DNA of 64,000 nucleotides from Flavobacteriales bacterium (lineage in GTDB: Bacteria; Bacteroidota; Bacteroidia; Flavobacteriales_F; PHOS-HE28), in assembly GCA_016788295.1 (NCBI GenBank), contig JAEUSY010000061.1, forward strand, positions 62,001 through 126,000. Reading direction: 5' to 3'. How positions within the stretch are numbered: the first letter of the stretch is position 1; each line of letters opens with the position of its first letter. Shown here piece after piece: positions 1,794-47,007 of this stretch. The translations under genes and the position numbers were made by a program. The notes below the pieces were generated by a model that had not been told where the DNA came from, ran no database searches, and worked only from the letters and a program-made list of their open reading frames with translations.

Positions 1794-1800
1794 TCTTCGC

Positions 1801-1808
1801 GAAAGTTA
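1801..1808 (-). promoter_or_regulatory. Promoter -7 box TAACTTTC for rel
   Basis: TAACTTTC followed by G, 7 bases from the rel start codon, so the transcript would be leaderless or nearly so. No clear TTG element was found at the usual upstream distance. Confidence 0.45.
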
Positions 1809-1817
1809 GGCCGCCTT

Positions 1818-3092: not shown

Positions 3093-3117
3093 ACCGCAAA
3101 GGTGCGAAGACCCTCGC

Positions 3118-3627
3118 TCACGGACAGACCACCAGCAGATCGTTGGTGGGCAACAGCTCGCCGCAACGCCTTGGGTCGAGCATGTCCGGGCTTACCAGGG
3201 TGATGCCGGTGGGCAGGCAGTCCGTGCCGATGTGGCGCACCACGCGCAAAGGCGCCGTTAGTCGCAGGGTATTGCCCGATGTGGTGGTGGCCTGCACGCT
3301 TACCATGTAAATGCTGCTGGGCGCCATGGTGCCATCGGCCAGTCGTCCATCCCACCCACCGAAGCCCGTGTGGCTGTACACCGGCCGCAACTGCGCGTCG
3401 CGGATGCCATACTGCACAGAGGTCACGTTGTACACCACCGGGGCGAACTGGTCGTTGATGCCATCCCAATTGGTGGTGATCACGTTGGGCACCATCAGGC
3501 AGGCGCTGTCCACGCGCACATGCCAGGCATGGTCCGCGGCCATGGGGGAGGTGCGCTCCGGGAGGCAACCCACAAGGCCGGTCGCCAGCACGAGCAAGGC
3601 AGGAAGTGCGCCATGGACACGTAACAT
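3118..3627 (-). CDS. Small lipoprotein with a CHU_C/gliding-motility-like beta domain
   Basis: 169 residues. The N-terminus is a lipoprotein signal with lipobox LVGC, so it is probably anchored to a membrane by its acylated cysteine. Residues of about 45-130 resemble the gliding-motility-associated (CHU_C, T9SS type B) domain: VPNVITTNWDGINDQF, then GGWDGRLADGTMAPSSIYMV. Unlike a classical sorting domain this is not at the extreme C-terminus: about 40 further residues with two cysteines follow. The start at 3627 is chosen because it gives the signal peptide and sits 5 bases from a promoter-like box; a longer frame upstream has no meaningful sequence. Function unknown; a surface lipoprotein is the safe reading. 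Confidence 0.7.
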   Translation of the reverse strand: MLRVHGALPALLVLATGLVGCLPERTSPMAADHAWHVRVDSACLMVPNVITTNWDGINDQFAPVVYNVTSVQYGIRDAQLRPVYSHTGFGGWDGRLADGTMAPSSIYMVSVQATTTSGNTLRLTAPLRVVRHIGTDCLPTGITLVSPDMLDPRRCGELLPTNDLLVVCP

Positions 3628-3632
3628 GGTCC

Positions 3633-3640
3633 CGAAGCTA
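3633..3640 (-). promoter_or_regulatory. Promoter -7 box TAGCTTCG for the CHU_C-like lipoprotein
   Basis: TAGCTTCG, 5 bases before the ATG at 3627 and inside the 25-base gap behind the upstream barrel gene. It suggests the lipoprotein gene has its own start of transcription. Confidence 0.45.
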
Positions 3641-3652
3641 CGTGCAACGGCC

Positions 3653-4492
3653 TTACGGTGCGGGCGCGGCCTTGGCCTTTCCGCCGCCGAAGCCGAACTG
3701 CCCGCCCAGCACCAAGGCGTTCTGCACGAACCAGAAGTGCTGGCTGGCCTTGTCCTCGGTGGTGCCGGTGGTGAGCACGTGCGGCAGGTCGATCCAGCCG
3801 CCGCGCAGCGTGTTGCGGATGAAGAGGTGGCGCAGGAAGGTGAAGTGCAGGCCCAGTTGGGCACCCACGCCCACACCGGCCACGTTGAAGCGGTTGTTGA
3901 TGCCCTCACCGAAGAGGCGCACATCGGAGCGGGGGATCACCGGACCGGCGTGCAGGCCCTCGAACACACGCAACCGGAAACGCCCGTCGCTGGTGGACCA
4001 CAGCGCATCGTAATGGTCCACATCAATGCAGAGCAGGTTGAGGCCGTCGGTGTGCTCGTAGGTCAGGAAGTCCGTGGTCAGCTTCACGTCGTTGCTGCCT
4101 TCCTGGGTGGCGTACTGCGAGGAACAGCTTTCGTTCACGTAGCCGTCCATGCGCACGGTCTGGTCGGCCTGCATCACGTACTTCATATGATCGAGGCCCA
4201 ACGACACGCTCCAGTTGTCCTTGAAGTACCAGCCCAGTCGGTAGTTGTACTGGGGGAACCACATGGTCCGGGGCGAGAAATAAGTGGATGCCGAGAAGTC
4301 GGTTGGACGGTCGTTGGCCGTTACGTGGCGCAGCGTGAAGTCGTAGTCGGTGCCTTTCAGGTGGATGTCGCTCCAGCTGTACCACGCGCGGTTGTAGCCC
4401 CAGTAGGCGAAGAAGCGGCCCTTGTCATACTGGGCGTTCACATGGCCAGCAAGTGCGGTGATGACGAGCAGGAGGAGCAGCGAACGGCGCAT
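3653..4492 (-). CDS. Predicted outer-membrane beta-barrel protein
   Basis: 279 residues with a clear Sec signal peptide ending HVNAQ (about residue 21). The mature part is rich in aromatic, alternating strands (FFAYWGYNRAWYSWSDI, YNYRLGWYFKDNWSVSLGLDHMKY), typical of outer-membrane barrels of Bacteroidota, and ends in a low-complexity KAKAAPAP tail instead of the usual terminal aromatic residue. I do not recognise a named family. It begins 3 bases after the thioesterase stop, so the two are probably cotranscribed, but no functional link is evident. Confidence 0.7.
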   Translation of the reverse strand: MRRSLLLLLVITALAGHVNAQYDKGRFFAYWGYNRAWYSWSDIHLKGTDYDFTLRHVTANDRPTDFSASTYFSPRTMWFPQYNYRLGWYFKDNWSVSLGLDHMKYVMQADQTVRMDGYVNESCSSQYATQEGSNDVKLTTDFLTYEHTDGLNLLCIDVDHYDALWSTSDGRFRLRVFEGLHAGPVIPRSDVRLFGEGINNRFNVAGVGVGAQLGLHFTFLRHLFIRNTLRGGWIDLPHVLTTGTTEDKASQHFWFVQNALVLGGQFGFGGGKAKAAPAP

Positions 4493-12968: not shown

Positions 12969-14261
12969 ATGGCAGAGGAAGTGCTCATCCACGTTGAAGG
13001 GGTCTCCAAGAAATTCTGTCGGGACCTCAAGGCCTCCCTGCGTTACGGCATGGCCGACCTGGCCGGCGAGCTCATTGGCAGGCCCCGTACCGATCACCTG
13101 CGCAAGTCGGAGTTCTGGGCCGTGCAGGATGTGAGCTTCACCCTGCGGCGCGGCGAATGCCTGGGCCTGCTGGGTCACAATGGTGCCGGCAAGACCACCA
13201 TTCTGCGCATGCTCAACGGCCTCATAAAGCCGGACAAGGGCCGCGTGGAGATGCGTGGCCGCGTGGGCGCCCTCATTGCGCTCGGTGCCGGTTTCGACCC
13301 CATCCTCTCGGGGCGCGAGAACGTGTACGTGAACGCTTCGGTGCTTGGCCTCACCTCACGCGAGATCGACCGGCGTTTCGACGAGATCGTGGACTTCGCC
13401 GACATCAAGGACTTCATCGACATGCCCCTGCAGAGCTACAGCTCGGGCATGGCGGCGCGGTTGGGCTTTGCCGTGGCCTGCGCCGTGGAACCGGATATCC
13501 TGCTGGTGGACGAAGTGCTGGCCGTGGGCGACCACTCGTTCCGCTTGAAGGCCCAGCGCGCCCTGCGCGAGGCCTTGGAGCGCGGCACCACCGTGGTGAT
13601 CGTTTCGCATAACCTGCACGACATCAGCGGTACCGCCACACGCTGCATCTGGATGGACCACGGCACCATCCGCATGGACGGCGATACGAGCACCGTGAGC
13701 AGCGAGTACCTGCACGCACAAACGCAGGTGGCCTCGGGCACCAAGGCCGCGCTGTTCGAGTACAGCCCCAACCGACGTGGCCACGTGGTGCTTACCCGTG
13801 TGGAACAGGTGGGCCACCCCGGTACGCATGTGCGCCAGGTGCAGGTGGACGACCTCGCCAAAGGCATCGACCTGGAACTGCACTACACCGCCATGAACGA
13901 TGTGCACGACGAGGTGGTGCATGCCATCAACCTGGTCACACGCGGCACCATGTACATCGCTCGCGGAGCCATCAGCTCACGGATCGATGCACGGGCCAAC
14001 GAACCCTTCACCCTTCGGGTGCATGTGGACCTGCCGGACCTGCTGCCCGGCCGCTACCGGCTGGAGCATTTTACATGGATGCCCGGCGGCGATATGTTGG
14101 AAGGTGTGCTGGACCTGGTGGAGGTCGAAGTGGTGCCACAAGCCTCCCTGCAACGCCTGCGTACGGCCCACACGCCCTTCTTTCTGGAGAAGATGACCGA
14201 CAACGCGAAAGGGAGCGTGCCCCTTCGTATTTCAATGGCAAATTCAACGCAGACAGCATGA
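12969..14261 (+). CDS. Polysaccharide ABC transporter ATP-binding protein (Wzt type) with C-terminal glycan-binding domain
   Basis: 430 residues. ATPase: Walker A GHNGAGKTT (about 68), signature YSSGMAARLGFAVA (about 158), Walker B ILLVDEVLAVGD (about 171), H-loop SHN. Residues of about 260-430 form an extra beta domain (DDLAKGIDLELHYTAMND) like the Wzt C-terminal domain. In well-studied O-antigen exporters that domain reads a terminal modification on the finished chain. So export here may be gated by a chain-end cap. The stop overlaps the next gene's ATG (ATGA). Confidence 0.93.
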   Translation: MAEEVLIHVEGVSKKFCRDLKASLRYGMADLAGELIGRPRTDHLRKSEFWAVQDVSFTLRRGECLGLLGHNGAGKTTILRMLNGLIKPDKGRVEMRGRVGALIALGAGFDPILSGRENVYVNASVLGLTSREIDRRFDEIVDFADIKDFIDMPLQSYSSGMAARLGFAVACAVEPDILLVDEVLAVGDHSFRLKAQRALREALERGTTVVIVSHNLHDISGTATRCIWMDHGTIRMDGDTSTVSSEYLHAQTQVASGTKAALFEYSPNRRGHVVLTRVEQVGHPGTHVRQVQVDDLAKGIDLELHYTAMNDVHDEVVHAINLVTRGTMYIARGAISSRIDARANEPFTLRVHVDLPDLLPGRYRLEHFTWMPGGDMLEGVLDLVEVEVVPQASLQRLRTAHTPFFLEKMTDNAKGSVPLRISMANSTQTA

Positions 14262-15706
14262 AGCTCCTCGTGATCGGACTGGATGGTGTGGACCGCCGCT
14301 TGGTGGAACATTTCGACATGCCGTTCACCCGATCGTTGTTGGACCAGCTCGCGGTGCTTCCGGTGAAGGAGGACCTGTGGAGCCGTGGTTGGGTGAAGAT
14401 GCTCTCCGGTCTGCCGCCCACCACCACCGGGGCATACTATGAGCAGCCCGCCCTCAACGGCAAGCCTGCTTTCACGCAGTCCTACGGGTCGAAGAGCTAT
14501 CCGACGAACGCAGTGCGTAAACCACTTTGGGCCGAGGTGGATGCATTGGGCAAACGTGCGGCTTGGCTGAACCTGCCCACCATGATGCCCGCTCCGGCCT
14601 TGAACGGGGTTGTGCTGGGTGGAGCTGGCGGTGGCTTCAGTCCCGAGAACCGGATACCTCGTGCGGCCTGCCATCCGCCCGAACTACAGGACCTCTTCAT
14701 CAGCGAACGCATGGTGTGGGAGAACCGCTACATCGTTTCGGGCATCCGCCATACCGACCTGTTCTTCTCCAAATGCACCGAAGCGCTCTGGAGCCGTGCG
14801 CGGATCTATGCGGATCTTGTACGGAACAGAGGCCAGATGGACCTGGGCTTCTTCGTGCAGAAGGAACCCGTGGTCATCAGCAATATCTACATGTACTCCA
14901 TCGAACAACTGATGGAAGAGAAGCATCCACGTCTTGCCGTCCACTACCTGCTCAATCAGTTCTACAGCGCGTTGGACGACACGTTGAAGTATGTCTTCGA
15001 CCGTCTGCAGCCCGAGCAGGTGATGGTGGTCTCGGACCATGGTGCCGCGCCCTACCGCAAGAGCATGAACTTCAATGTGATGCTACAGGACCTGGGTTTC
15101 CTGAAGTATACCGCGGAGAAGACCGTGGCAAAAGGGAAGGGAGGACCGGTGGATAAACTGAAGGCCCGCTTCGCGCACGAGGTGCGGCAGGTGACCAACA
15201 GCCATCCCCGCGCCGATTTCCCATCCTTCACGCCCATCGACTTCGGGCACACCAAGGCCTTTACCAACTTCTACGTGCCGGGCATCTTCCTCTACGACCA
15301 ACGCTTTGGTGGGCAGGCCCTTGAGGCCGTTCAAGCACAGGCGCTCACCGATGCCATCGTACGCGACTTCAATGCCCACCCCGAGGCCAAGGAGAACAAG
15401 CTCGTGGCACGTCCCTTCCGCCGCGAACATGCCGGCACGCCGGCCTACGACCTGCTGCCCGAGGTGTGGGTGGACCACCCGGTGGACCTCTTCCCCGAGC
15501 AACGCGGACTGGCCGTACAGAAGAACCCCTATTACCGCGACTGGAGCGACCTCGCCGGACTGCCGCGCGACATTGGTAGTGGCAAGAAAAGCCCCGATGC
15601 CCTTTGTGTGGTGGATCCCCGCTTCCTGCGCGATGTGGACCCCGCCCGCCAAGGCCTCGACCTCACCGTGGTGCACGAACTGGTGTTGAACCACTTCCGG
15701 TCCTGA
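14258..15706 (+). CDS. Alkaline phosphatase-superfamily enzyme (type I phosphodiesterase/NPP-like)
   Basis: 482 residues, no signal peptide, so probably cytoplasmic. The N-terminus MKLLVIGLDGVD carries the first metal-binding Asp. Thr-rich SGLPPTTTG is the likely nucleophile region, VVSDHGAAP is a metal-binding block, and HTKAF and HAGTPAYD supply further ligand candidates. It most resembles nucleotide pyrophosphatase/phosphodiesterase-like proteins found near polysaccharide genes. The substrate is not evident: perhaps a nucleotide sugar or a phosphorylated glycan. The start is set by the ATGA overlap with the ATPase gene. Confidence 0.8.
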   Translation: MKLLVIGLDGVDRRLVEHFDMPFTRSLLDQLAVLPVKEDLWSRGWVKMLSGLPPTTTGAYYEQPALNGKPAFTQSYGSKSYPTNAVRKPLWAEVDALGKRAAWLNLPTMMPAPALNGVVLGGAGGGFSPENRIPRAACHPPELQDLFISERMVWENRYIVSGIRHTDLFFSKCTEALWSRARIYADLVRNRGQMDLGFFVQKEPVVISNIYMYSIEQLMEEKHPRLAVHYLLNQFYSALDDTLKYVFDRLQPEQVMVVSDHGAAPYRKSMNFNVMLQDLGFLKYTAEKTVAKGKGGPVDKLKARFAHEVRQVTNSHPRADFPSFTPIDFGHTKAFTNFYVPGIFLYDQRFGGQALEAVQAQALTDAIVRDFNAHPEAKENKLVARPFRREHAGTPAYDLLPEVWVDHPVDLFPEQRGLAVQKNPYYRDWSDLAGLPRDIGSGKKSPDALCVVDPRFLRDVDPARQGLDLTVVHELVLNHFRS

Positions 15707-34686: not shown

Positions 34687-35616
34687 ATGGGAAAGCGGGT
34701 GCTCATCACCGGCGGCGCGGGCTTCATCGGTTCGGCGCTCGGTGCACAGTTGGTGTCCAACGGGCATGAAGTGCATGTGTTGGATGATCTTTCCTTTGGA
34801 CGTCGCAATCTTGCCCCCGTACCCGACGAGCGTTTCCATCAAGTGGACATCCGCGACCGTGCCGCGGTGCGCACGACCGTGGAACGTATCGCTCCGCAGT
34901 GGACTCTCCACCTGGCCGCGGTGCACTTCATTCCCTACTGCAACGCACACCCCATAGAAGCTTCTGATATAAATGTCTGTGGAACCATCAACGTGCTTGA
35001 TGCCTGTGGTGCCATCGCCGGATGTGAGCAGATGTTCGTGGCCAGCACGGCGGCCGTATACCCCATTGCTGACCGCGCCGTGGATGAGAGGCATGACACT
35101 GGCCCGATGGACATCTACGGGATCACCAAACTGGCCACCGAGCGGCTGGCGGGAGAGTTCCAGATGCGCACCGGCATTCCCACGATCATCGGACGCTTTT
35201 TCAACGCATTTGGACCCAACGAGACCAACCCGCACTTGATCCCCGAGATCCAGCGACAGGTATTGGCCGGTGCACGTACGCTGAAGCTCGGCAACCTCGA
35301 CCCCAAACGCGATTTCATTCATACCCACGACATGGCCCGTGCCATGGATGCCTTGTTGAACGCAGGTCTGAAAGGGCTTGAGGTCTTCAACATCGGTCGT
35401 GGTATCGAATACAGCGTGCGTGAAGTGGTGGAGGCTTTTGAGCGCCAGCTCGGCGAGCCATTGAAGATCGAGGTTGACCCCGCACGTGTGCGCAAGGTGG
35501 AACGCATGCACCTGCTGGCCGATGTGTCCAAGCTGGAGCGTGTGACCGGCTGGAAGGCACAGTGGGACCTCGACAAGGGAATTCGCACGCTGCTCACCGA
35601 GGATGTCCCGCTCTGA
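34687..35616 (+). CDS. NAD-dependent epimerase/dehydratase (extended SDR, UDP-sugar epimerase-like)
   Basis: 309 residues. The cofactor motif GGAGFIGSALGAQLV opens the Rossmann fold. HLAAVHFIPYC, the Ser of VASTAAVYP and YGITK (the YxxxK catalytic pair) follow, then GRFFNAFGPNETNPHLIPE. This matches UDP-glucose 4-epimerase-type enzymes; whether it epimerises or dehydrates, and on which sugar, is open. Reads on into a GT4 one base after its stop. Confidence 0.88.
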   Translation: MGKRVLITGGAGFIGSALGAQLVSNGHEVHVLDDLSFGRRNLAPVPDERFHQVDIRDRAAVRTTVERIAPQWTLHLAAVHFIPYCNAHPIEASDINVCGTINVLDACGAIAGCEQMFVASTAAVYPIADRAVDERHDTGPMDIYGITKLATERLAGEFQMRTGIPTIIGRFFNAFGPNETNPHLIPEIQRQVLAGARTLKLGNLDPKRDFIHTHDMARAMDALLNAGLKGLEVFNIGRGIEYSVREVVEAFERQLGEPLKIEVDPARVRKVERMHLLADVSKLERVTGWKAQWDLDKGIRTLLTEDVPL

Positions 35617-35617
35617 G

Positions 35618-36721
35618 ATGCACATTGCCCTGTGTACCGACGGTGTGTTCCCACTGGCCATGGGCGGCATGCAGCGGCATTCAAGGCTTTTGGCCGAGGA
35701 ATTGGCACGCACGCCAGGTGTTCGGCTAACGGTCATCCATCCACATACGGCACCGATCTTCGACGCTCGGCTGGGCATCACAGAGGTAACGGTTGAGCCG
35801 ATCGATACAGCGCGATTCTACCTGCGCGAACTGTGGCGGTACAGCGAACGGGTGGCAAAGGTCCTGGACCGCATCTCGCCGGACGTCGTGCTATCGCAGG
35901 GTTACACCGTATGGAGCGGCATCGAGCGGTTCTCCCACAAGCTCATCGTTAATCCGCATGGTCTTGAGATGTTCCAGGGGATCACGCTGCGCGACCAGCT
36001 GATCGGTGCGCCGTTCCGGTTCACGCTTCGTCATATCCTTCGGCGTGCGGCGATCTGCATTTCGCTCGGTGGCCGCCTGACACCGATCCTTCAACAGCAG
36101 GTGAAAGGTGTGCACACACGGGTGATCACGGTGCCCAATGCCGTGCATGTGCCCGAGGTCATGCCGGCCTATCCCGTGGATGGTGGTCCGTTGCGATTGC
36201 TCTTCGTAGGGCGTTTTGCCTTCAACAAGGGATTGGACCTGTTGATCCAAGTGGCGCGTCGGTTGGAAGGTGAAGGCAAGGGTGATGTGGTGCACTTCCT
36301 GCTTGCTGGTGATGGGCCGCTCATGGCCGAGATCAAGGCCAACGGCGTTCCGGCCAACGTTGAACTACTGGGCAAGATCGATGATGAAGGTCTGTTCAAG
36401 GCCTATCACCACTGCCACGCCTTGGTACTACCCACGCGATTTGAGGGCATGCCCACCGTTGTGCTGGAGGCCATGGCACAGGCAAGGCCGGCCATCGTGA
36501 GCGATGTGGGCGCCACTGCAGAGCTTATTGATGGCTCCACTGGCCGCCTGCTGCCCAAGGGCGATGTGGATGCGCTCTACCAAGCGGTGATCGACCTGGC
36601 CAGCCTATCCGTGTCCGCACGTGCGAAGCTCGGCCGTGCGGCATGGGAGAAGGCACGTGCTCAGTATACCTGGTCGGCCGTGGCGGCAAGAACATTGGCG
36701 CTGGCGAAAGAGCTGCGTTAG
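35618..36721 (+). CDS. Glycosyltransferase family 4
   Basis: 367 residues. MHIALCTDGVFPLAMGGMQR starts the GT-B fold; the donor half reads RLLFVGRFAFNKGLDLLIQV, LLAGDGPLMAEIKANG and LPTRFEGMPTVVLEAMAQA (E-x7-E). ATG at 35618 is preferred over one at 35603, which would overlap the epimerase gene and add residues before the fold. Last gene before the convergent secreted-protein operon. Confidence 0.92.
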   Translation: MHIALCTDGVFPLAMGGMQRHSRLLAEELARTPGVRLTVIHPHTAPIFDARLGITEVTVEPIDTARFYLRELWRYSERVAKVLDRISPDVVLSQGYTVWSGIERFSHKLIVNPHGLEMFQGITLRDQLIGAPFRFTLRHILRRAAICISLGGRLTPILQQQVKGVHTRVITVPNAVHVPEVMPAYPVDGGPLRLLFVGRFAFNKGLDLLIQVARRLEGEGKGDVVHFLLAGDGPLMAEIKANGVPANVELLGKIDDEGLFKAYHHCHALVLPTRFEGMPTVVLEAMAQARPAIVSDVGATAELIDGSTGRLLPKGDVDALYQAVIDLASLSVSARAKLGRAAWEKARAQYTWSAVAARTLALAKELR

Positions 36722-36745: not shown

Positions 36746-37531
36746 TCAGCGCGAATAACAGCACCGGGACACGATGGGGAGCGTGGTATCGGTGGCCAAT
36801 CGAGTGCTTGCGGCGGCGCAGCTGTTCTGCAAAGCCATACGGATATTGCCATCCTCGTTGGCCGAGTCGCGTGTCCATTCCCAATTGCCCACCATGTTGT
36901 TGAGCCCGAGCGAGCTCGCTGCCACGCATGCTGCGTAGAGCTCGCCCCAACTGCACAGCCTCCGGTCCGCTGAAATGCAGGCCAAACTTGCCTGAAAGTA
37001 GTTGGAGGCCCCTCGTTCATCGGGCTCGATACAATATTGCTCGTTCACGGCGACCATGCCATCCGGACAGGAGCGACGGGCATTGGCGCGTCCGTTCATC
37101 ACGTGATATGCGGCACCATCGTAGACCAACGAAAGGATCGTCCCCGCAGGGTAGGCATCTCCGGCCAGAGGCACTCCGGGTGCGGCAAGCACAGGCACGG
37201 CGGCCTGGTCGTTCACTTCGAGTGAGACGAGGCCACCAGAGGCCGAAGGTGTCGTTACCAATAATTGTGTGCCTGCTGTGGCGGGTCCGACCAATGCGGG
37301 TAGAACGGCGTGCCAATTGGCCCCGTTCAGCGTTGTGTTGGCATTGCGGTGCTGCCCGGTCTGTTCCGTTCCAGTGGCAAGCACGGCGCTTGGTGCGATA
37401 CTGGCGGGTAGCCCGGTGACCTGCCGCTGTTCAGGTCCGGTCCCCGTAAGCTGTACAGGGCGGTCAACGCTCACTTGGGCAAGTGTTGTGCAGGCAAGCA
37501 CCAACGTGAGTGATGTGCTAAAGGTCCTCAT
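36746..37531 (-). CDS. Secreted protein, tail-fibre-like plus FGE/C-type-lectin-like (paralogue C)
   Basis: 261 residues with a signal peptide (to about residue 19). N-terminal half: VDRPVQLTGTGPEQRQVTGL then SLVYDGAAYHVMNG, resembling phage tail-fibre domains that end in an LVYDGTxFxLL strand. C-terminal half: YCIEPDERG, RRLCSWGELYAAC, MVGNWEWTRDSAN and a final SRCCYSR. The cysteine spacing and the NWEW-x-D motif recall formylglycine-generating-enzyme/sulfatase-modifying domains, a C-type-lectin-like fold. Last of three paralogues, joined by ATGA. Probably a surface or secreted binding protein; enzyme activity is unlikely to be judged from this. Confidence 0.7.
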   Translation of the reverse strand: MRTFSTSLTLVLACTTLAQVSVDRPVQLTGTGPEQRQVTGLPASIAPSAVLATGTEQTGQHRNANTTLNGANWHAVLPALVGPATAGTQLLVTTPSASGGLVSLEVNDQAAVPVLAAPGVPLAGDAYPAGTILSLVYDGAAYHVMNGRANARRSCPDGMVAVNEQYCIEPDERGASNYFQASLACISADRRLCSWGELYAACVAASSLGLNNMVGNWEWTRDSANEDGNIRMALQNSCAAASTRLATDTTLPIVSRCCYSR

Positions 37532-38301
37532 CGCTTGTGGTAGCAGCAACGGGTTTCGGCCACACGGACCAACAGAACGCTTTCAGAGCGATGGCTTGTA
37601 CAGGTGAATCGGCCGGCCTGGTCAGCGGTGTGCGAATGGTTCGAGGTATCATCGATCCATTCCCATTCGTTGAACATGCCTGTGAGCTGCGTACCCACCA
37701 GGCTGCATGCTGCACTGTATTCGTCCAATGTGCACAGTTTGCCGCCACGCCTCGCGCAGCGGTCCATGGCCTGATAGATGAGCTGCCCTGCCACCGTGGT
37801 CTGGTCTATACAGAAATTGCTGTTCACCGATATTGTGGCCGGTGGGCATTCCGGTTCGGGCAGGTTCAACAGGGTATAGCGGCCAGCTGCCACCAGTACT
37901 TCGGCTATGCGGCCGGTGGTCATCTGCCCCCAGGTCGGGTTCACGCCATCGGTGCGCAACAAGGGCATGGCCGCCCCACCTTGTATCCGGGCCCACAAGC
38001 GGCCGCTCATGTCCTGCGGAACAGCGAAACGTAAGAGCAGCCCATCCCTGACAGGAACAACTGTAGGTGTGGTGCTGAGTTCCAACGTATCGGCAATGCG
38101 TTGTGCAGTGCACCAGCGCCAGCCATCGCGAACAGCGGCTTCAACGGTCACCGCGGCATCGCTTTGTGCAGGCTGTCCAATGCCATCGATCCGGCGCTGG
38201 TCCTCAGGACCGGTCAGTCGTATCGGAACGTTCAGGTCCACTTGTGCCATAGTGGCCATTGCGCAAAGGGTCACCAGGCAGGAGGTGAGGAGCTGCTTCA
38301 T
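37528..38301 (-). CDS. Secreted protein, tail-fibre-like plus FGE/C-type-lectin-like (paralogue B)
   Basis: 257 residues, signal peptide ending MATMAQ. The start VDLNVPIRLTGPEDQRRIDG matches the other two paralogues. The middle is the most divergent of the three: a DGLLLRFAVPQDMSGRLWAR block instead of the usual segment. The C-terminal half keeps FCIDQ, GGKLCTLDEYSAAC, NEWEWIDDTSN and the end TRCCYHKR. Coupled by ATGA to both neighbours. Function unknown; ligand binding is inferred from the fold. Confidence 0.68.
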   Translation of the reverse strand: MKQLLTSCLVTLCAMATMAQVDLNVPIRLTGPEDQRRIDGIGQPAQSDAAVTVEAAVRDGWRWCTAQRIADTLELSTTPTVVPVRDGLLLRFAVPQDMSGRLWARIQGGAAMPLLRTDGVNPTWGQMTTGRIAEVLVAAGRYTLLNLPEPECPPATISVNSNFCIDQTTVAGQLIYQAMDRCARRGGKLCTLDEYSAACSLVGTQLTGMFNEWEWIDDTSNHSHTADQAGRFTCTSHRSESVLLVRVAETRCCYHKR

Positions 38302-39083
38302 CGGTTGGTGCAGCATCGGTAACGCGCAGTGTTCGTGGGAAGACTGGTACCACCATAAGCACAGCCTGCGCTCTCTGGGTTCGTGGAACCGTCGCTTCCC
38401 TGGCCCACACGCTTGGCATCGGTGGCACTGTTGGCGGCGCTGTCCACCCACTCGAATGAAGGCACGGTGCCCATGAAGTCGGGAATGCTACGGCAGGCAT
38501 GGGTCCATTCAGAAAAAGTGCAGAGCCTTGCCCCCATCTGTGTACAGGCCTGTGCGGCGGAATAGAAGGTAAGTGCCGCACGCGAGGAGTCCTCAATGCA
38601 GAACTCCCGTGCCACCGCCCTGAACCCGGTACGGCAAGGCAGGTAGCTGTTCCCCAACAGCAGGAACATCGTGCCGTCGTAAACCAAACGGGCTGGAATG
38701 CCGGGGAACAGGTCCGCGCTGTCCAAGGGCAGACCGCCTTGTTTGGCCAGTGGGCGTGGTCCAAGTCCATTGAGGTCCAACTGTGCACCGGGTCGGTTGG
38801 CCTGTTGCGGAAGGATATGCACGACCATGCCGGCGGCATACGCATTCGGTGCTGGTGCCAGCGTTGCGGTCAGTACCGTGCTGCCGGTGGCCAGCGCATA
38901 GGTCGTGGCATTATCCCGGGCTGCGGCCAGGCTTACGGCGGCAGTGCTATCAACAGGGTCCGCCAAGCCGAGCACTTGTCTTTCGTCTTCGGTCCCGCCG
39001 TTCAGTACCAAGGGAACGGGAACATCCCATTGGCCTTGGGCAATGAACGCTGTGAAGAGGGTAAGTAGGGAGAGGGACCGCAT
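38298..39083 (-). CDS. Secreted protein, tail-fibre-like plus FGE/C-type-lectin-like (paralogue A)
   Basis: 261 residues, signal peptide to about residue 18. This paralogue shows the tail-fibre-like part best: LNGGTEDERQVLGLADPVDS, then LDLNGLGPRPLAKQGGLPLD and ARLVYDGTMFLLLG, a pattern common in phage collar and fibre proteins. The C-terminus has FCIEDSS, GARLCTFSEWTHAC, SFEWVDSAANSAT and the end YRCCTNR. The ATG at 39083 overlaps the upstream stop as TGATG; a GTG one codon earlier is also possible. Confidence 0.7.
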   Translation of the reverse strand: MRSLSLLTLFTAFIAQGQWDVPVPLVLNGGTEDERQVLGLADPVDSTAAVSLAAARDNATTYALATGSTVLTATLAPAPNAYAAGMVVHILPQQANRPGAQLDLNGLGPRPLAKQGGLPLDSADLFPGIPARLVYDGTMFLLLGNSYLPCRTGFRAVAREFCIEDSSRAALTFYSAAQACTQMGARLCTFSEWTHACRSIPDFMGTVPSFEWVDSAANSATDAKRVGQGSDGSTNPESAGCAYGGTSLPTNTARYRCCTNR

Positions 39084-39976
39084 CACGACTTAACAAAACG
39101 TTGGACATACATGGCGTTGATGCGCAGTAGATAGCAGCCAGACGGTAGGGTGCTGACATTGACGGTGAACGGTGCCTCAGCGAAAGCGCCGTTCTCTACC
39201 ACAGAGATGGTCCTTCCTGAAGCATCGAGCACCTCGATCCGGGTCAGATCGACCGGTGCGAGCGCTTGCACGTAGATCACCTCATGGGCAGCGGTGGGCC
39301 AAATGCGGAAGGGGCCGCTCGGCGCAATGCCAGCGAGCGCTGTTGTCTGGTCGGGGTCGAAGGCGGTGAGGTAGGTGCTGGTTCCTACAAGGCTTGTGGC
39401 AAGCGTTAGTGCCACCGCGTCGTTCACGGTGGGGATATCGGCCCACGGGCCGGCCAAGGAAGCGCTGATGTGGATGGATAGAACGTCAGGTGAAAGTCCG
39501 TTCAGTTCAGTGGCATCCAATCTGAGCGATACGCTGAATGGCACATCATCCAAGGTCGGGGCAGTAAGACCATACCATCGGGCAATGCTCTGTACCGGCC
39601 CACCTGCACTGCGCGGCATATGGCCACGCGTAAGCGTAAGGGTTCCGGAATTCGCTGGGATCGACACGGTGAGACCTAGTCCTCCTGGTTGCTGGTCCGT
39701 AACACCATTGGACAAAGGGAGCTCGCATCGTTCGGTGCCGATGCCGGTAATGGGACCGCCCACCGGTTCCTCCAGCCGCGCCTCTGTGCCCAGGTCCATG
39801 GAACCATTGTTCTCTAAGCTGGCTCCCGGGGCCAGGGTGTAGACGATAGGGCCTTGTATCACCACTGTGGTCCCGGGCAGTATGGTCATGCTACCATTGG
39901 CCAAGGACATGTTCGCGTCCTGTGCTCTCAGGGTCGGAATGATCAGTCCGGCGAGAAGTATGCTCAGTGACCGCAT
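39083..39976 (-). CDS. Secreted protein with T9SS type A C-terminal sorting domain
   Basis: 297 residues, signal peptide ending TLRAQ. The mature N-terminal part is a low-complexity beta region without a known family. The last roughly 80 residues form a type A sorting domain: FRIWPTAAHEVIYVQAL, RIEVLDASGRTISVVENG, VNVSTLPSGCYLLRI, ending KS. It should cross the outer membrane by type IX secretion. First gene of the four-gene operon; the three paralogues behind it lack a recognisable sorting domain, so it may be their surface partner. Confidence 0.8.
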   Translation of the reverse strand: MRSLSILLAGLIIPTLRAQDANMSLANGSMTILPGTTVVIQGPIVYTLAPGASLENNGSMDLGTEARLEEPVGGPITGIGTERCELPLSNGVTDQQPGGLGLTVSIPANSGTLTLTRGHMPRSAGGPVQSIARWYGLTAPTLDDVPFSVSLRLDATELNGLSPDVLSIHISASLAGPWADIPTVNDAVALTLATSLVGTSTYLTAFDPDQTTALAGIAPSGPFRIWPTAAHEVIYVQALAPVDLTRIEVLDASGRTISVVENGAFAEAPFTVNVSTLPSGCYLLRINAMYVQRFVKS

Positions 39977-40061: not shown

Positions 40062-40460
40062 ATGGACCTGAAGGGGATCTTAGCCGACCACATGGGGCAT
40101 TTTACGCTGTACAATGTACCCAACATGTTGGTGGCCCTGCTGCTGTCAGCCGTTCTTGCCTACTATTTCAACACGTTGGGCATGCGCTCTACAGCCGTCC
40201 AAGCCCGCCAGATGGCCCTTTGGGCAGCAGTGACCGCATTGGGCGTTGGCTTTGTTCGCGCCCAGTTCCCCTTGGCCGTGGCCTTGCTTGCGTTGATCTT
40301 GTTGTTGCGCGCACCGGATATGCCGGCATCCGAGCGGTTGCCTTTGTTCGGTGCGTTGGTCATAGGAATGGGTTGTGGCAGTGGAGCCTCGTTGATCGTG
40401 GTGGCCCTGTTCGTGCCCTTTGTTCTGCTCGCAAGGTGGGCCACTGCCCTCAAGCACTGA
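40062..40460 (+). CDS. Small integral membrane protein, unknown function
   Basis: 132 residues with about four hydrophobic segments (MLVALLLSAVLAYYF, ALWAAVTALGVGFV, PLAVALLALILLLRA, GASLIVVALFVPFVLLA). No family recognised. It is the first gene of the unit that continues with CotH and the Wzy-like protein (14 bases to the next start), so it may be a membrane partner of one of these. Real-gene status rests on its promoter box, start and steady hydrophobic pattern. Confidence 0.65.
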   Translation: MDLKGILADHMGHFTLYNVPNMLVALLLSAVLAYYFNTLGMRSTAVQARQMALWAAVTALGVGFVRAQFPLAVALLALILLLRAPDMPASERLPLFGALVIGMGCGSGASLIVVALFVPFVLLARWATALKH

Positions 40461-40473
40461 GGTGGTCAGCACC

Positions 40474-42102
40474 ATGGCCATGAACACCCTTCTGCGCGGT
40501 CCGGGCTTGCTGCTTGCAGGCCTGTTCGTTGCGGTGTTGATGGCCCTTGCGTTCAGGGAGCCTGTCGTTGGTCTGGTTCCGGGTATCAATAATGACGGGC
40601 CGTTGTTCATCGTTGCGCCCAACGGAATGGTGGAGGTCCGCTCTCGGTCCGGTGAGCCTTTGCTTGTCTCTACACATGGCGACGGTTCGGCAGCTCGCAG
40701 GTATGGCGATCGGGCACAGGTTCGGGTGATTCCTGATAGGCGGGGCGCATCGGCACGGATCGCGGTTCCCACTTCACTGCAATGGCGTCATCCATTGTTC
40801 GGACTTCCGGCCGCAGGCGTGTTAGCGGCATCGGAGGATGGGGGGGCGTCCATGCGCATTCACACGGTGCCTGAGGTGGGCCACGGCGTGCTTCCCGTGC
40901 TTTCGCTCGTTGCGCCTGATGGGGCGTTCTTCGATCCGGACAGTGGTCTTCTCGTGGTCGGTCACACCATGCTGAATGCACCGCTGGAACTGGAGCGCAG
41001 CTATGCTCGCGATCCCCGGTTCTGGAAGTACCCTGGCAATTTTCACGGACGGGGTAAGGACTGGGAGCGAAGGGCCGTACTGCAGTGCTTGGGTGCGGAT
41101 GGAGGCGAAGAGTGGCAGGTCAAGGCCGGTGTCCGGATCAATGGTCAAATGACACGTGGGTTTCCGCAGCATGCGCTCCGTGTGCTGTTGGATGAACCGC
41201 TCCAAGCGGCTCCTTGGGGTGAAGGCTCGGCCGGGGCCACCTCCTTCGTGATCCGTGCTGCGGGTAACGATCAGGTAAAGGCCATGATGCGCGATGCCTA
41301 CCAACATGGCCTGTGTGATGGCCTGTTGTTCGAGGTGTCCAAGGCCATGCCCTGTGTGCTCTATATGAATGGGGCCTATTGGGGTGTGCATCACTTACGG
41401 CAGCGCATGGATGATGAGGAACTGGCACGCCGTTACAATGTAAAGGCGAAGAAGATCACCATTGTGGAGGATCTCGGAGTGCTGTACAAAGGCGATCCGA
41501 AGGCCCCGGACCAATTGTTGGGCCTAGTGGATAGCGTGGAACAATGGGATGGGCGTGCCCAGGAAGTGTGGCAGCACATCGAGGCGCAATTGGATGTGCC
41601 CGAGTTCCTGCAATACATGGCCGTCCAACTGGTGCTCGGTAATATGGATTGGCCACGGCAGAACGTGAAGTATTGGCGCTACGAGGGTAAGCCCATTGTG
41701 GGAACCAAGCTTGATGGCCGCTGGCACATGATCATGGGCGATAGCGACCTGGGCTTCGGAGCTGTGGCCCCCCCCGGCGGCGACATGTTCCAGAAACTGC
41801 GGCCCAAGGATTCCCCCACGGCGCGGCTCTTCATGGGGTTGATGCGTTCACCCGACATGCTGGCGCAGTTCAAGGTCATTGTGGAGGACCTGGTCTCAGG
41901 TCCGCTTTCAAGCAGCCGCTTGACCACCACACTGGACCACATGACCGGAACCATGGCGCCGGAAATGGAACGCCACACGGCACGCTGGCGAAAGCCGGTG
42001 GATGCTGCCCATTGGCAGCGTGAGGTGCAGGTGATGAGGGAATTCGCGGTCCAAAGACCCGGGGCGGTTCGCGCCCAGGTCCAAGAGTTCACCGGACAAT
42101 AG
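40474..42102 (+). CDS. CotH-type kinase family protein, membrane-anchored
   Basis: 542 residues. One N-terminal membrane segment (GLLLAGLFVAVLMALAF) places the body outside the cytoplasm. CotH blocks are present: GVRINGQMTRGFPQHALRV, LYMNGAYWGVHHLRQRMDDE and GRWHMIMGDSDLGFG, the last holding the acidic metal-binding residues. CotH proteins are atypical kinases; CotH of Bacillus phosphorylates spore-coat proteins. The substrate here is unknown, either a secreted protein or the polysaccharide. Upstream of the Wzy-like gene by 11 bases. Confidence 0.82.
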   Translation: MAMNTLLRGPGLLLAGLFVAVLMALAFREPVVGLVPGINNDGPLFIVAPNGMVEVRSRSGEPLLVSTHGDGSAARRYGDRAQVRVIPDRRGASARIAVPTSLQWRHPLFGLPAAGVLAASEDGGASMRIHTVPEVGHGVLPVLSLVAPDGAFFDPDSGLLVVGHTMLNAPLELERSYARDPRFWKYPGNFHGRGKDWERRAVLQCLGADGGEEWQVKAGVRINGQMTRGFPQHALRVLLDEPLQAAPWGEGSAGATSFVIRAAGNDQVKAMMRDAYQHGLCDGLLFEVSKAMPCVLYMNGAYWGVHHLRQRMDDEELARRYNVKAKKITIVEDLGVLYKGDPKAPDQLLGLVDSVEQWDGRAQEVWQHIEAQLDVPEFLQYMAVQLVLGNMDWPRQNVKYWRYEGKPIVGTKLDGRWHMIMGDSDLGFGAVAPPGGDMFQKLRPKDSPTARLFMGLMRSPDMLAQFKVIVEDLVSGPLSSSRLTTTLDHMTGTMAPEMERHTARWRKPVDAAHWQREVQVMREFAVQRPGAVRAQVQEFTGQ

Positions 42103-42113
42103 CCCGTACGGCC

Positions 42114-43472
42114 ATGCTGAAGATGCTCCGCGACGAATACCAGTTCATGGCCTTGGCCTTGATCTGGATCATGGCCGCTGTCTTCGCGGGCCCCATTGTA
42201 TTCGCGTTGCTGCCGCTCTCCATCCTCTTCATCCGCTCCCGCGAGATGTGGCCGGAGATGTTCTTTGGATTCCTGCTCGTGCTGGTGCTTTCCGATGTGG
42301 CCAAGGATGCCTTCGTGAGCATGAACGTGTTCAAGAGCGCGAAGAACACCTATATCGTTGTGCTTGCCGTGGTCTTCTTTCTGCACCGTGAACATTTTGC
42401 CCCATATGCCCGCGTGTTCGATCTGTTCCTGCCGTTCTTCCTGTTCAGCATCATACCGCTGATCTTCTCCAATACCATCCTGGTAGGCATCCAGAAGACG
42501 CTCTCCTACGCCCTGCTCTATCTCATTGTTCCCAATTTCGTTCTCTACAATTTCAGACGTAGCGGTTGGGAGTTCATACGGAACCTCATCTGGTTCATGG
42601 TCGTCATCCTTTTGGCCGGCCTTGTGACCTACTTGTATGGTGATTGGTACTCCCACGTGAACGGCCGGTTCCGCGGTCTCTTCGGCAATCCGAACGGGCT
42701 GGGGATCTTCTGTTATCTCACACTGGTGCTCGTGACCGTTGCGATCAGCATCAATCGCGGGCTCTTCGCGTTCTATGAAAAGGCGATCATCTACGGTGTG
42801 ATCCTTTACTTCCTTTTCTCTTCTGGTTCCCGGGCCTCTACCACTGCGGTTCTCATTTTCCTGGTCTTTCATCGCTTGGTGGCACGATCTCCATCGCTCG
42901 GGTTCGTTCTGTTCCTGGCCGCGTTGGGGGTAGGGGAGGTGGTCTCCTCCAACTTGCCTGCCATTGTTGAGGCCCTCGGTCTTGAGAAGTACTTCCGGTT
43001 GCGTACGTTGGAGAGCGGAAGCGGTCGATACTTCGCTTGGGAGTTCGCGTGGATCCACATCCAGGACTATTTCGTGCTCGGTGGTGGCTTCGGTAACGAC
43101 GAGTTCATTTTCCGTAAGCACCGTTTCTATCTGTGGCGCATGAACCACCAGGGCGGTGTACACAATTCCTACCTCTCCTTCTGGCTGGACGTGGGCATTG
43201 TTGGCCTGCTTATTTACCTCCGCAGTTTCCTGTTGATGTTCATCAAGGCCAGTAAGGCCGTTCCCATGAGCCTTGCTGTGATGTTCTCCACGTTGTTCTC
43301 CATCATGTACGAATCATGGCTCGTGGGTTCGCTCAATCCGTTCACCATTGTGCTACTTACCACCATGACCTTGGTCACCGAGGAGGAGATCTACGATTGG
43401 GAGCACCTCAGCGAGGCGGATGAGGCGACCCATGAAGCTTCCGACGGGGAGGTGGTCCCGGCCTTGGGCTGA
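42114..43472 (+). CDS. O-antigen ligase/polymerase-like membrane protein (Wzy/WaaL type)
   Basis: 452 residues, roughly eleven membrane segments. GRFRGLFGNPNGLGIFCYLT, SSGSRASTTAVL and the loop ending GGVHNSYLSFWLDVGIVGLL match the O-antigen ligase/polymerase family (large periplasmic loop with conserved Arg and His). A Wzy-like polymerase is unexpected beside a Wzm/Wzt exporter; a ligase role, joining finished chains to an acceptor, would fit better. The cytoplasmic tail is acidic (EEEIYDWEHLSEADE). Confidence 0.85.
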   Translation: MLKMLRDEYQFMALALIWIMAAVFAGPIVFALLPLSILFIRSREMWPEMFFGFLLVLVLSDVAKDAFVSMNVFKSAKNTYIVVLAVVFFLHREHFAPYARVFDLFLPFFLFSIIPLIFSNTILVGIQKTLSYALLYLIVPNFVLYNFRRSGWEFIRNLIWFMVVILLAGLVTYLYGDWYSHVNGRFRGLFGNPNGLGIFCYLTLVLVTVAISINRGLFAFYEKAIIYGVILYFLFSSGSRASTTAVLIFLVFHRLVARSPSLGFVLFLAALGVGEVVSSNLPAIVEALGLEKYFRLRTLESGSGRYFAWEFAWIHIQDYFVLGGGFGNDEFIFRKHRFYLWRMNHQGGVHNSYLSFWLDVGIVGLLIYLRSFLLMFIKASKAVPMSLAVMFSTLFSIMYESWLVGSLNPFTIVLLTTMTLVTEEEIYDWEHLSEADEATHEASDGEVVPALG

Positions 43473-43479
43473 AGCGGTT

Positions 43480-43486
43480 TACTTTG
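43480..43486 (+). promoter_or_regulatory. Promoter -7-like box TACTTTG before the CotH/beta-helix gene
   Basis: Seven-base version (TAnTTTG) one base shorter than the consensus, 6 bases before the ATG at 43493. Weak; the gene may simply be cotranscribed. Confidence 0.3.
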
Positions 43487-43492
43487 TCGGCC

Positions 43493-45970
43493 ATGGGAAG
43501 AAAGTGGCTTTTGGTGATCGGGTCGCTGATGGTCCTGCTTGCTGCAGGGGCCTGGTTCGGCGACAAACTGTTGAAGAAGCGGGAGCATCCGGGCCTGGTA
43601 ACCTTCATAAAGCAATGGGCGCGTAACTACCCGGCGTCATTCGCCGTGGAACCGATCGAACTGGCCATTACAGTGTCCGATAAGGATATGGCCGAGTTGG
43701 AGCGTATGGTGGAGGAGGCACGGGAAAGAGGCGTGATATTACCCGAAGGACGCGACTACGTTCCGGCAACATTGAGCAGCCCAGATGGCACCCTCAAGGC
43801 CAAGGTGCGCATCAAGGGCAAGATGACCGACCATGTGAAGGGCAGCAAATGGTCGTTCCGCGTGGTGGCCAAGAAGGACGGCGGATTCCTCGGAATGCAG
43901 CGCTTCTCCCTGCAACATCCTGGCACTCGCAACTACCTGTGCGACTGGTTCTATCACCGCCTCTCTGCCGGTGAAGGCATTGCGGCACTTCGTTACGGGT
44001 TCATCCGGGTCACCTTTAATGGCGAGGACCTTGGAGTGTACGCCTATGAGGAACATTTCGGACCGGAACTGCTCGCCCACAATGGCCGGGTGAAAGGGCC
44101 TTTGTTCCGTTTCGATCCGGCGCTGTTCTGGGTGCATCGTCTCAACGAGATGAACAAGGTGCGATACGATGAACCTTTTGAGGCCTACCAGGCGGCTGCG
44201 TTGGACGCCTTTGGTTCCAGCGATCTGGAGAAGGATGCGGAAGCAAGGGCACTTTTCGCAGAGGCATGCGGGCTTATGGATGGTTTCAGGCGTGGTGATC
44301 TGAAGGCCTCTGAAGTGTTCGACGTGGAGCTGATCGCCCGCAGGCACGCCTTGCTCGATCTTGTGGGCGGCCACCATAGCATGGATTGGAGCGATGTGAA
44401 GTTCTACTACGATCCTGTGCTCAAGCGCATCGAGCCGGTTTCCTACGAAAGCTTCAGCGCGCACCACATTGAAGCCCTTGCCGGATCGTGGCGCTTCGTG
44501 GGCCGTCAAGGCGCTGATCAGGACCTGCACGATGCTTACTTCAATGATCCCGATCTCTTCAGGGCCTATGTGCATGCTCTGGAGCGCATGGCCCGCCCAT
44601 CTTACCTGGATAGTGCGTTCGCAAAGCTGGCCCCTGCCTTGGACAGTGCTGCAGCGATCATCTACCGCGAATTCCCTTACAAGGAATTGGATCGTTCGAT
44701 CTACTACCACAATCAGGAGATCATACGCCGCTTGCTGGATGTGCCCAAGGGTTTCCACGCATACCAACAGCAACATGTAGGCGACACCCTGTTGGTGATG
44801 GCCGTTCCTGTGGAAGCCTTACCCATGGAAGTTCAGGGTGTGGTGCTCGCCGATGGCACGTTGGCACCTCCGGTGGGCCGTTCCATCGTGCCCAGCAGGA
44901 AGCCCAACAGCACGGGTGCGCCGATGGCACTACGCTTCGTGTTGCCGGCCGGGAAGCAATGGCCCGAAAAGGAACTGCTGTTGAAATACAGTGTACTAGG
45001 TGCTAGTGTCACCAAGGAACTGAGCATCTTCCCGCAGGCCTTGCCGTTGATCGCGAAACCGCTGCTCCCCGTGCCTATGACCGTGGCCCAACTACGCGCC
45101 GAACCGATGTTGGCAGTGGATGAAGCGCTGGCCACCATCACCATTCGCCCGGGCAACTGGGTCCTGGACCATGACCTCTCCTTACCACAAGGGTTCATCG
45201 TTTCAGCTACGGCCCCCCTTCGCATCGATCTGCGCAATGGTGCGCGGTTGATCAGCCGTTCGCCCACGAATATCAAGGGGTTGGAGGAGGCGAACGTGGT
45301 CATCTTCTCTTCGGACGGAACAGGTGGCGGTGTGCGTTTGCTCGATACAGGGCGACCATCTCAATGGAGCCACGTGCGTTTCGAAGGGTTCGGTGCTGTG
45401 GACACCCTGCCTGCCGTGGTGTTCAGCGCTGCTGATGTGACCATGGTGGACTGCCGGCTCGCAGAGAATGGTGCTCGCGACCTGCTCATGGTCGTTCGGG
45501 GCACCTTGCGCATGGAGCGGGTGACCATGGCCGGCGGCCGCGACCAATTGACACTTGCTTACGTGTATGCCACTTTAGGCAACGTGGTTCTGAACGCCGC
45601 CGCAGATGAGGCCATGGTGGTGCATGGCGGTCGCACCGAAATGAACAACGTGCGAACCCGAATGACGAAGGGAGTGGGGGTGAAGGCGGACAACGGTGCG
45701 GCATTGCAAATGGACCAATGCGAGGTCAATGCGGAAGGCGATGGGGTCGAACTGGAAAAGGGGAGCACGCTGAACGCAAAGGGCGGTTCGATCAGGTCGG
45801 GGTCCACCGGCATTCGTGCTGGTAAGGAGGAACAGCGGCATGGTCCGTGCAAAGTGGACATTAAGGGAACCGCGGTTGAAGGGGAGAAAGCACCCTTCTT
45901 TGTGGGCAAGGGCGCCGTGGTCAAGTTGAATGGTAACCCGGTACAGGCTGATATGGAACCATCGCTATGA
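43493..45970 (+). CDS. CotH kinase fused to a right-handed beta-helix domain
   Basis: 825 residues. N-terminal membrane anchor (WLLVIGSLMVLLAAGAWFG). CotH region from about 85 to 400: VRIKGKMTDHVKGSKWSFRV, RFSLQHPGTRNYLCDWFYH, VTFNGEDLGVYAYEEHFGPE and MDWSDVKFYYDPV. Beta-strand linker, then from about 600 a parallel beta-helix with short repeats (VVFSSDG-like strands, WSHVRFEGFG, TMVDCRLAENGARDL, QMDQCEVNAEGDGVELEKG), a fold typical of polysaccharide binding. A kinase joined to a likely carbohydrate-binding helix suggests a glycan or glycoprotein substrate. ATGA overlap with the phosphoesterase. Confidence 0.82.
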   Translation: MGRKWLLVIGSLMVLLAAGAWFGDKLLKKREHPGLVTFIKQWARNYPASFAVEPIELAITVSDKDMAELERMVEEARERGVILPEGRDYVPATLSSPDGTLKAKVRIKGKMTDHVKGSKWSFRVVAKKDGGFLGMQRFSLQHPGTRNYLCDWFYHRLSAGEGIAALRYGFIRVTFNGEDLGVYAYEEHFGPELLAHNGRVKGPLFRFDPALFWVHRLNEMNKVRYDEPFEAYQAAALDAFGSSDLEKDAEARALFAEACGLMDGFRRGDLKASEVFDVELIARRHALLDLVGGHHSMDWSDVKFYYDPVLKRIEPVSYESFSAHHIEALAGSWRFVGRQGADQDLHDAYFNDPDLFRAYVHALERMARPSYLDSAFAKLAPALDSAAAIIYREFPYKELDRSIYYHNQEIIRRLLDVPKGFHAYQQQHVGDTLLVMAVPVEALPMEVQGVVLADGTLAPPVGRSIVPSRKPNSTGAPMALRFVLPAGKQWPEKELLLKYSVLGASVTKELSIFPQALPLIAKPLLPVPMTVAQLRAEPMLAVDEALATITIRPGNWVLDHDLSLPQGFIVSATAPLRIDLRNGARLISRSPTNIKGLEEANVVIFSSDGTGGGVRLLDTGRPSQWSHVRFEGFGAVDTLPAVVFSAADVTMVDCRLAENGARDLLMVVRGTLRMERVTMAGGRDQLTLAYVYATLGNVVLNAAADEAMVVHGGRTEMNNVRTRMTKGVGVKADNGAALQMDQCEVNAEGDGVELEKGSTLNAKGGSIRSGSTGIRAGKEEQRHGPCKVDIKGTAVEGEKAPFFVGKGAVVKLNGNPVQADMEPSL

Positions 45971-47007
45971 GCCTTCTTTCCATATCGAGCATAGGCGCTG
46001 CATGGCTATGGGCGGCCACGGTGCTAGGCCAGACTTCACCCTTCACCTCCGTAGCGGTCCGTCCACCCGATAGTTCGGGGCACTACCGGTTGGTCATCAG
46101 TGGCCATTTCCACGGAAGCAGTTCCAATCGTTCGGGTTATCCGGCGGCCACACTGCTTGCTGGGTTGGATACCATCAATGCACTTCGCCCCAATGTATTG
46201 CTCAGCACCGGCGACCTGTTCCTCGATGCCGAGGCTGATATCCCGCGTTACAGGTCCGTATTGTTCAACAGGCTGAACGTGCCCCTGTTCAATGCGCCGG
46301 GCAATCACGATGCCGGCCCTGCATATTCCGAGGCGTTCGGCCCTGCATTACAGGTCGTTCGTATGGGTGCCGATCGCATCTTGATACTCGATACGGAGCG
46401 GGACAATGGCAGCATAAAGGGTGATCAGCTCGATACGTTGCGGGCACTGGTCCAGGGCCTGAATGGACGGTTGTTCATAGTCTCTCATCGCCCTGTATGG
46501 GCTGAGGATGACAGTAACTACAGCGAGCTTTTCGCAGGCAATACGCGCTCTCTGGTGCCGGGAAATTATCGTACGGAGGTCTGGCCATTGCTGAAGGACA
46601 TTGAAGCACCAGGGCAGCTGTTCTGGATCAGTGGAAGCATGGCCGGCCGGGCACCCACCAGCATCTTTTTCCAACAGCACACTCCACAGGTCACCTTCAT
46701 CCAGAGCGCCATACGCGATGAGTTGCGCGATGCTCTGCTTGTGGCCGACATAGGACCTGATGGGGTCGAATGGTCGGTCGTTTCATTGACCCACAGTGCT
46801 GTTGAGCGACCAGAGGTCTATAACGCTGCCTGGTGGAACGATCGGATCGCCCGCCCCGAACCCTTCAATTGGCGGCTGCTTCCATACATCGTTGGGGTGA
46901 CCATCACACGCATTGAGTTCTTCTATGGCCTGCTGGTCGGCGCATTGCTGGTCGGTCTGGTCGGTGGCCTTATCCGTCGTGCACGCCGCTCCGGATCGGG
47001 CGCTTAG
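45967..47007 (+). CDS. Calcineurin-like metallophosphoesterase-type protein, membrane-anchored, with degenerate motifs
   Basis: 346 residues: signal-like N-terminus (WLWAATVLGQT), phosphoesterase fold, and a C-terminal membrane segment (FYGLLVGALLVGLVGGLI) with a basic cytoplasmic end. Motifs STGDLF, PGNHDAG and VSHRPVW are present. The first motif, normally DxH, reads SGHFHG, and the last GHxH is replaced by SGSMAG, so metal binding may be altered. The body would face the periplasm, like the two CotH kinases. Coupled by ATGA to the CotH/beta-helix gene: a likely kinase-phosphatase pair. Confidence 0.78.
   Translation: MSLLSISSIGAAWLWAATVLGQTSPFTSVAVRPPDSSGHYRLVISGHFHGSSSNRSGYPAATLLAGLDTINALRPNVLLSTGDLFLDAEADIPRYRSVLFNRLNVPLFNAPGNHDAGPAYSEAFGPALQVVRMGADRILILDTERDNGSIKGDQLDTLRALVQGLNGRLFIVSHRPVWAEDDSNYSELFAGNTRSLVPGNYRTEVWPLLKDIEAPGQLFWISGSMAGRAPTSIFFQQHTPQVTFIQSAIRDELRDALLVADIGPDGVEWSVVSLTHSAVERPEVYNAAWWNDRIARPEPFNWRLLPYIVGVTITRIEFFYGLLVGALLVGLVGGLIRRARRSGSGA

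Follow-up and report, generated by a model that had tools for sequence, protein, structure and literature searches.

Three paralogous, lectin-tipped fibre proteins inherited as a fixed set in a Flavobacteriales polysaccharide locus point to one heteromeric surface fibre

We analysed a 64,000-nucleotide stretch of a Flavobacteriales genome (assembly GCA_016788295.1, contig JAEUSY010000061.1, positions 62,001 to 126,000; hereafter the window), in which four nearly gapless minus-strand open frames at 36746-39976 encode a leader protein followed by three paralogues, here called A, B and C. This arrangement bears out the operon of secreted paralogues behind a type IX secretion system (T9SS) protein that the original prediction, made from the letters of the window, had described. 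Our best overall explanation is that A, B and C are three chains of one short lectin-tipped surface fibre (probability about 0.6), and we consider their predicted assembly into an A:B:C heterotrimer rather probable. The most specific form of this proposal, an obligate A:B:C lectin fibre with three different heads that is exported or anchored with the T9SS leader and co-evolves with one surface polysaccharide, stands at even odds in our estimation. The module itself is real, conserved and well-defined.

The three chains are short (257-261 aa) and diverged, with aligned identities to A of 26% for B and 32% for C, and the genome holds exactly these three members of the family. All begin, as had been proposed, with a signal peptide. 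It ends at a Gln found in 100% of the A, B and C members of the genus, in line with the Q-rule for Bacteroidetes substrates of signal peptidase I (PMC5837995). The shared N-terminal block, the terminal RCC and the [RK]LC and EW motifs are all real, as is the LVYDG strand described in two of the three chains (present in A and C, absent from B); the RLC-x-x-E motif exists too, with its spacing corrected to three residues, not two, between the C of RLC and the E. Across ~120 members from the genus, eight cysteines, the E-W and one Ala do not vary.

Pfam scans with single members gave no information on B and C, and profiles were built from 34-37 orthologues per chain. The shaft region of the profiles (query ~40-149) matched one bead, residues 233-333, of the Pa193 gp47 phage fibre (9b45; E = 5.8e-8 for A, 3.5e-8 for B and 8.3e-8 for C), and the tip matched the C-terminal tip of Bdellovibrio Bd2740 (8OKS; E = 3.4e-5, 2.2e-5 and 0.012, respectively). 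AlphaFold2 monomer models of A and C (mean pLDDT 81 and 89, the linker before the shaft being of low confidence) retrieved the same pair in Foldseek (9b45 at 8.8e-6 for A; 8oks at 3.2e-5 for C), and VIA-align placed 8oks on top for both (Z 12.6 with 99 residues aligned at 2.2 A for chain A; Z 13.8 with 101 aligned at 2.2 A for chain C), followed by snake-venom lectins, Legionella Lcl and, for C, also Mtd and formylglycine-generating enzymes (FGE). More than 540 chains reached a Z of at least 8, and among the matches listed all were C-type-lectin-like or of FGE fold, which places the tip in the C-type-lectin-like domain (CTLD) fold. Since sequence profiles and structure searches concur on a fibre bead plus a lectin tip, we assign this build to A and C from profiles and models, and to B from its profile matches and its alignment with A and C. 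These results agree with the beta-rich phage-fibre shaft and C-type-lectin/FGE-fold tip that the original prediction had foreseen from structure prediction and with the phage fibre match (Pa193 gp47) that it had expected of profile searches; the folds are not unrelated to such domains, and the set is kept well beyond its own genome, in 31/45 genomes of the genus.

The resemblance to FGE that had been noted holds for the fold and fails for the enzyme. The tip shares its fold with FGE, and weak FGE-sulfatase matches do occur (0.04 in C; 3/36 A members, best 4e-4), but PF03781 stays below its cut-off (best 14 bits, in C, vs 23.3), the domain measures ~110 aa vs ~280 in FGE, sits on a fibre shaft and carries eight invariant cysteines, and the lectin tip is the better match; we therefore rejected a formylglycine-generating function as very improbable and regard the relationship as one of fold only. 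Much the same applies to a remnant of a prophage tail-fibre region. The shaft does match phage tail families (phrog_4900, by 12-18 members of each chain, and phrog_28171) and a Rhizobium phage fibre over 58 residues, the latter the single tblastn match obtained from phage records; against this origin stand the signal peptides, the T9SS leader and a location among polysaccharide genes that is conserved in 31 genomes, and no phage gene was seen among the neighbours examined, so that we rejected it as hardly credible.

Evidence for a joint function comes from the inheritance of the three chains. Among the 45 genomes searched of the genus, a group of uncultured Bacteroidota that is alone in its order in our collection, 31 carry the family, mostly in three or six copies, and a tree of its members, with frames called from flanking DNA, resolves three clades (support 0.995-1.0), one per position. 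The complete sets, from 28 genomes, are ordered A-B-C in 35/35 cases, and seven genomes hold two complete sets, several of them as ABCABC; judged from this gene order, sets duplicate as units. Incomplete sets sit at contig ends, with the sole exception of one genome (G036), whose two damaged sets, taken together, still include every chain. In that genome, which is 72% complete, the locus (L038) comprises a leader-A-C set and a B-C set 11 kb apart (1787-3365 and 13569-15145). The shaft alone and the lectin alone each return clades A, B and C (support for the lectin-based C clade is just 0.57), and because either domain gives the same clades, the chains have not swapped domains. The distances between sets are also correlated between chains (Mantel r = 0.76, 0.81 and 0.81; 0/2000 permutations). 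An apparent leader-A fusion (an 851-aa frame in G006) was dismissed as an artefact of a long open frame, leader and A lying in different frames. The secreted adhesin or fibre set first proposed thus stands as an architecture; beyond that, A, B and C prove to be fixed chains, each conserved separately and all passed on together, a pattern that speaks for one heteromeric fibre rather than for a group of similar adhesins.

Junctions between the genes follow the same boundaries. In the window, leader and A share 1 nt (TGATG), and A/B and B/C share 4 nt (ATGA); across the genus, the -4 overlap is found at 35/37 A/B and 31/38 B/C junctions, and an ATG at -4 at only 1/8 C/A junctions. Overlaps are therefore common within sets and rare at set borders, the pattern that equal co-translation within a set would need. 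The chains have also become distinct at defined residues: one homologous lectin position is K224 in A (100%), D, N or V in B, and R231 in C (100%), and further chain-specific invariants include H222 and the shaft residues W63, R91 and E134 in B, and W73 in C. Where B has shaft E134, the residues of A/B/C are R/E/S in 16 sets and D/E/R in 4 sets of one clade. Shaft columns covary more in matched than in shifted register (z = 2.2 for A-B, 1.6 for B-C and 1.1 for A-C), and the lectin-domain columns of chain pairs showed no register covariation.

The same data bear on an alternative in which each of A, B and C makes a homotrimeric fibre of its own, with its own specificity, and the three are kept together by a shared task, for example binding three sugars of one glycan. 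Independent homotrimers would be expected to be lost or duplicated singly, whereas all complete sets are A-B-C and are duplicated as ABCABC, translational coupling mostly ends at set borders, and even the sole damaged locus still has every chain; on balance we regard this alternative as unlikely. Several observations nonetheless speak for it or weigh against a heterotrimer. Relatives of known structure are homotrimeric (Bd2740, PMC10769870; Pa193 gp47, PMC11042391), other Bacteroidia carry single-gene relatives, and in the nearest relatives outside the genus the tip is borne by single proteins that presumably form homotrimers. The register covariation between shafts is weak, the charge switch at the E134 position comes down to one or two evolutionary events and is no more than suggestive, and the Mantel agreement stems in part from shared ancestry. 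Our models are of monomers, and heterotrimer assembly is inferred here from the genes; inheritance as a unit could also keep three jointly acting homotrimers together.

The original prediction had placed the operon antisense within a glycan locus, and the neighbouring genes confirm this: a glycosyltransferase and a sugar epimerase/dehydratase lie on one side, and a CotH-like protein, a Wzy/ligase-like protein and an 828-aa protein on the other (Table 1). Wherever flanks were readable, the sets lie in this same polysaccharide region, and genomes with a set have close orthologues of the CotH-like and 828-aa proteins, contig breaks and one broken 828-aa homologue (G004) aside; conversely, ten set-less genomes that are at least 95% complete had no close orthologue of either protein. 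Two incomplete genomes (G010 and G035) have the 828-aa protein and no set. Since the sets lie within one polysaccharide locus and come and go with it, we rank the cell's own polysaccharide first among candidate ligands. The co-occurrence with polysaccharide genes fits such a role, and may also reflect no more than physical linkage. A different ligand is conceivable under either mode of assembly: the fibre could be an adhesin for foreign cells, as in Bdellovibrio, with the polysaccharide locus only its genomic housing. The tip and general plan resemble the fibres of that predator (PMC10769870), and phage fibres and Mtd bind foreign surfaces, but sets with readable flanks share one polysaccharide locus and are absent where its markers are absent, and we view a foreign ligand as a possibility well short of even odds.

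A part in bringing the fibre to the surface may fall to the leader, which lies directly ahead of A in nearly every genome whose flanks could be read, although it was not found in one genome (G012) nor before the fragmentary set of another (G005). Its N-terminal region is conserved and gave no fold assignment. The T9SS tail claimed for it is weak in the single protein (Por_Secre_tail, 26.2 bits; cut-off 27) and holds up otherwise, since the genome search lifts it above the cut-off (29.1 bits) and 11/13 leader orthologues match the family. The genome itself has 129 matches to Por_Secre_tail plus a GldJ homologue. Pfam-type scans of the members found no T9SS sorting domain in A, B or C, so that the leader may carry or anchor them at the surface. 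One locus (G035, L107, ~3012-3872) has a leader without A, B or C and a glycosyltransferase directly after it.

Taken together, we envisage that one translationally coupled message would yield equal amounts of A, B and C, each of which would be exported by Sec, contribute one strand to a trimeric shaft bead of phage-fibre type and bear a disulfide-rich C-type-lectin tip, such that the A:B:C heterotrimer would display three non-identical lectin heads. Complement C1q, with its three chains, offers a comparison for such a three-headed fibre. The T9SS-tailed leader, made just upstream, would probably carry or anchor the fibre at the cell surface, where the fibre would most likely bind glycan, with the cell's own polysaccharide as first candidate and a foreign cell surface as second.

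Table 1. Genes and junctions of the fibre set and its neighbourhood, in window coordinates.
Feature	Position	Strand	Description
Group 1 glycosyltransferase	35603-36721	plus	PF13692/PF00534; convergent neighbour of chain C
Chain C	36746-37531	minus	same architecture as A; private invariants W73, R231
B/C ATGA stop-start overlap	37528-37531	minus	
Chain B	37528-38301	minus	same architecture as A, without LVYDG strand; profile matches; private invariants W63, L75, R91, E134, H222
A/B ATGA stop-start overlap	38298-38301	minus	
Chain A	38298-39083	minus	signal peptide; fibre shaft bead ~57-146; C-type-lectin tip ~147-261
Leader	39083-39976	minus	open frame; N-terminal region conserved, C-terminal T9SS sorting domain degenerate; orthologue directly 5' of A elsewhere
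CotH-like protein, putative secretory kinase type	40420-42102	plus	PF08757, 5e-40; co-occurs with fibre set
Wzy/O-antigen-ligase-like membrane protein	42114-43472	plus	PF04932
828-aa conserved protein, no family match	43484-45970	plus	co-occurs with fibre set
346-aa protein	45967-47007	plus	kept with fibre set across genus

Among the neighbours, the 828-aa and 346-aa proteins had no Pfam, NCBIfam or PDB sequence match; by eye, the former may comprise a diverged CotH-type region and, after it, a tail resembling a beta-helix. A homologue of it, fragmented and interrupted by stops, lies on a different contig of a genome that has two complete fibre sets (G004:C82:23145-24409). For the CotH-type protein beside the set, modification of the fibre and modification of the glycan are both conceivable.

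The fibres of this build whose structures have been solved, from bacteria and from phages, are homotrimeric. If our reading is true, parts of phage fibres have been turned into a three-chain surface lectin that combines three different heads on one spike, and the set shows a route from a homotrimer to an obligate heterotrimer. With three 260-aa chains it would also be a compact model for fibre assembly, and possibly, in environmental Bacteroidota, a self-glycan lectin associated with one polysaccharide locus. In the open-access literature, with few subscription journals covered, we found no description of a three-chain heterotrimeric fibre in bacteria or of this exact composition. A loose search of ~350 other Bacteroidia genomes, in which few candidates were scored per genome, returned no full-length relatives outside the genus; these genomes have the shaft or the tip separately, in single proteins of other build. 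At a threshold of 1e-12, a further 394 genomes from the phylum gave no B-type protein (sampled groups, few candidates scored). Close sequence relatives of the tip occur in single-gene Bacteroidia fibres (loci L104, 748 aa, L105, 214 aa, and L108, all from genomes G067 and G085), which differ from the set in being long or differently stalked single proteins that form no triplets.

The best solved match of the tip by both sequence and fold is Bd2740, likewise an exported surface fibre with a C-type-lectin tip, whose structure (8OKS) has been described as a C-type lectin fold, trimeric and without calcium, that forms the end of a mosaic adhesive trimer (MAT) surface fibre (PMC10769870). MATs are single-gene trimeric fibres, typically of ~600-1100 aa (PMC10769870), whereas here three ~260-aa chains come as a constant set behind a T9SS leader. 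MATs carry a conserved ~130-aa beta-rich domain directly after the signal peptide; that region of these chains consists of a short linker and a single bead of phage-fibre type. Since the tip is homologous to that of MATs while the length and single-gene organisation, and hence the long single polypeptide, are lacking, the chains are MAT-like and not members of the group. The C-terminal domain of Legionella Lcl (8Q4E), the trimeric tip, of C-type-lectin fold, of a secreted adhesin that binds glycosaminoglycans (PMC11162425), also aligns with the tips (VIA-align Z 11.6 for A and 12.7 for C), but Lcl has a collagen-like stalk, a single gene and no disulfides. Pa193 gp47 (9B45) resembles the set in the trimeric fibre bead that matches the shaft domain, and differs from it as a 962-aa homotrimeric virion fibre with no lectin tip match and no secretion signal. 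In gene organisation there is a likeness, drawn from its description, to the tail of the virophage DSLV2, in which three consecutive fibre genes with conserved positional groups have been reported, with co-expression data, as one heterotrimer that binds a bacterial surface (PMC12724248); that tail belongs to a virus, resembles T4 gp37 rather than a C-type lectin, and comes with no secretion leader.

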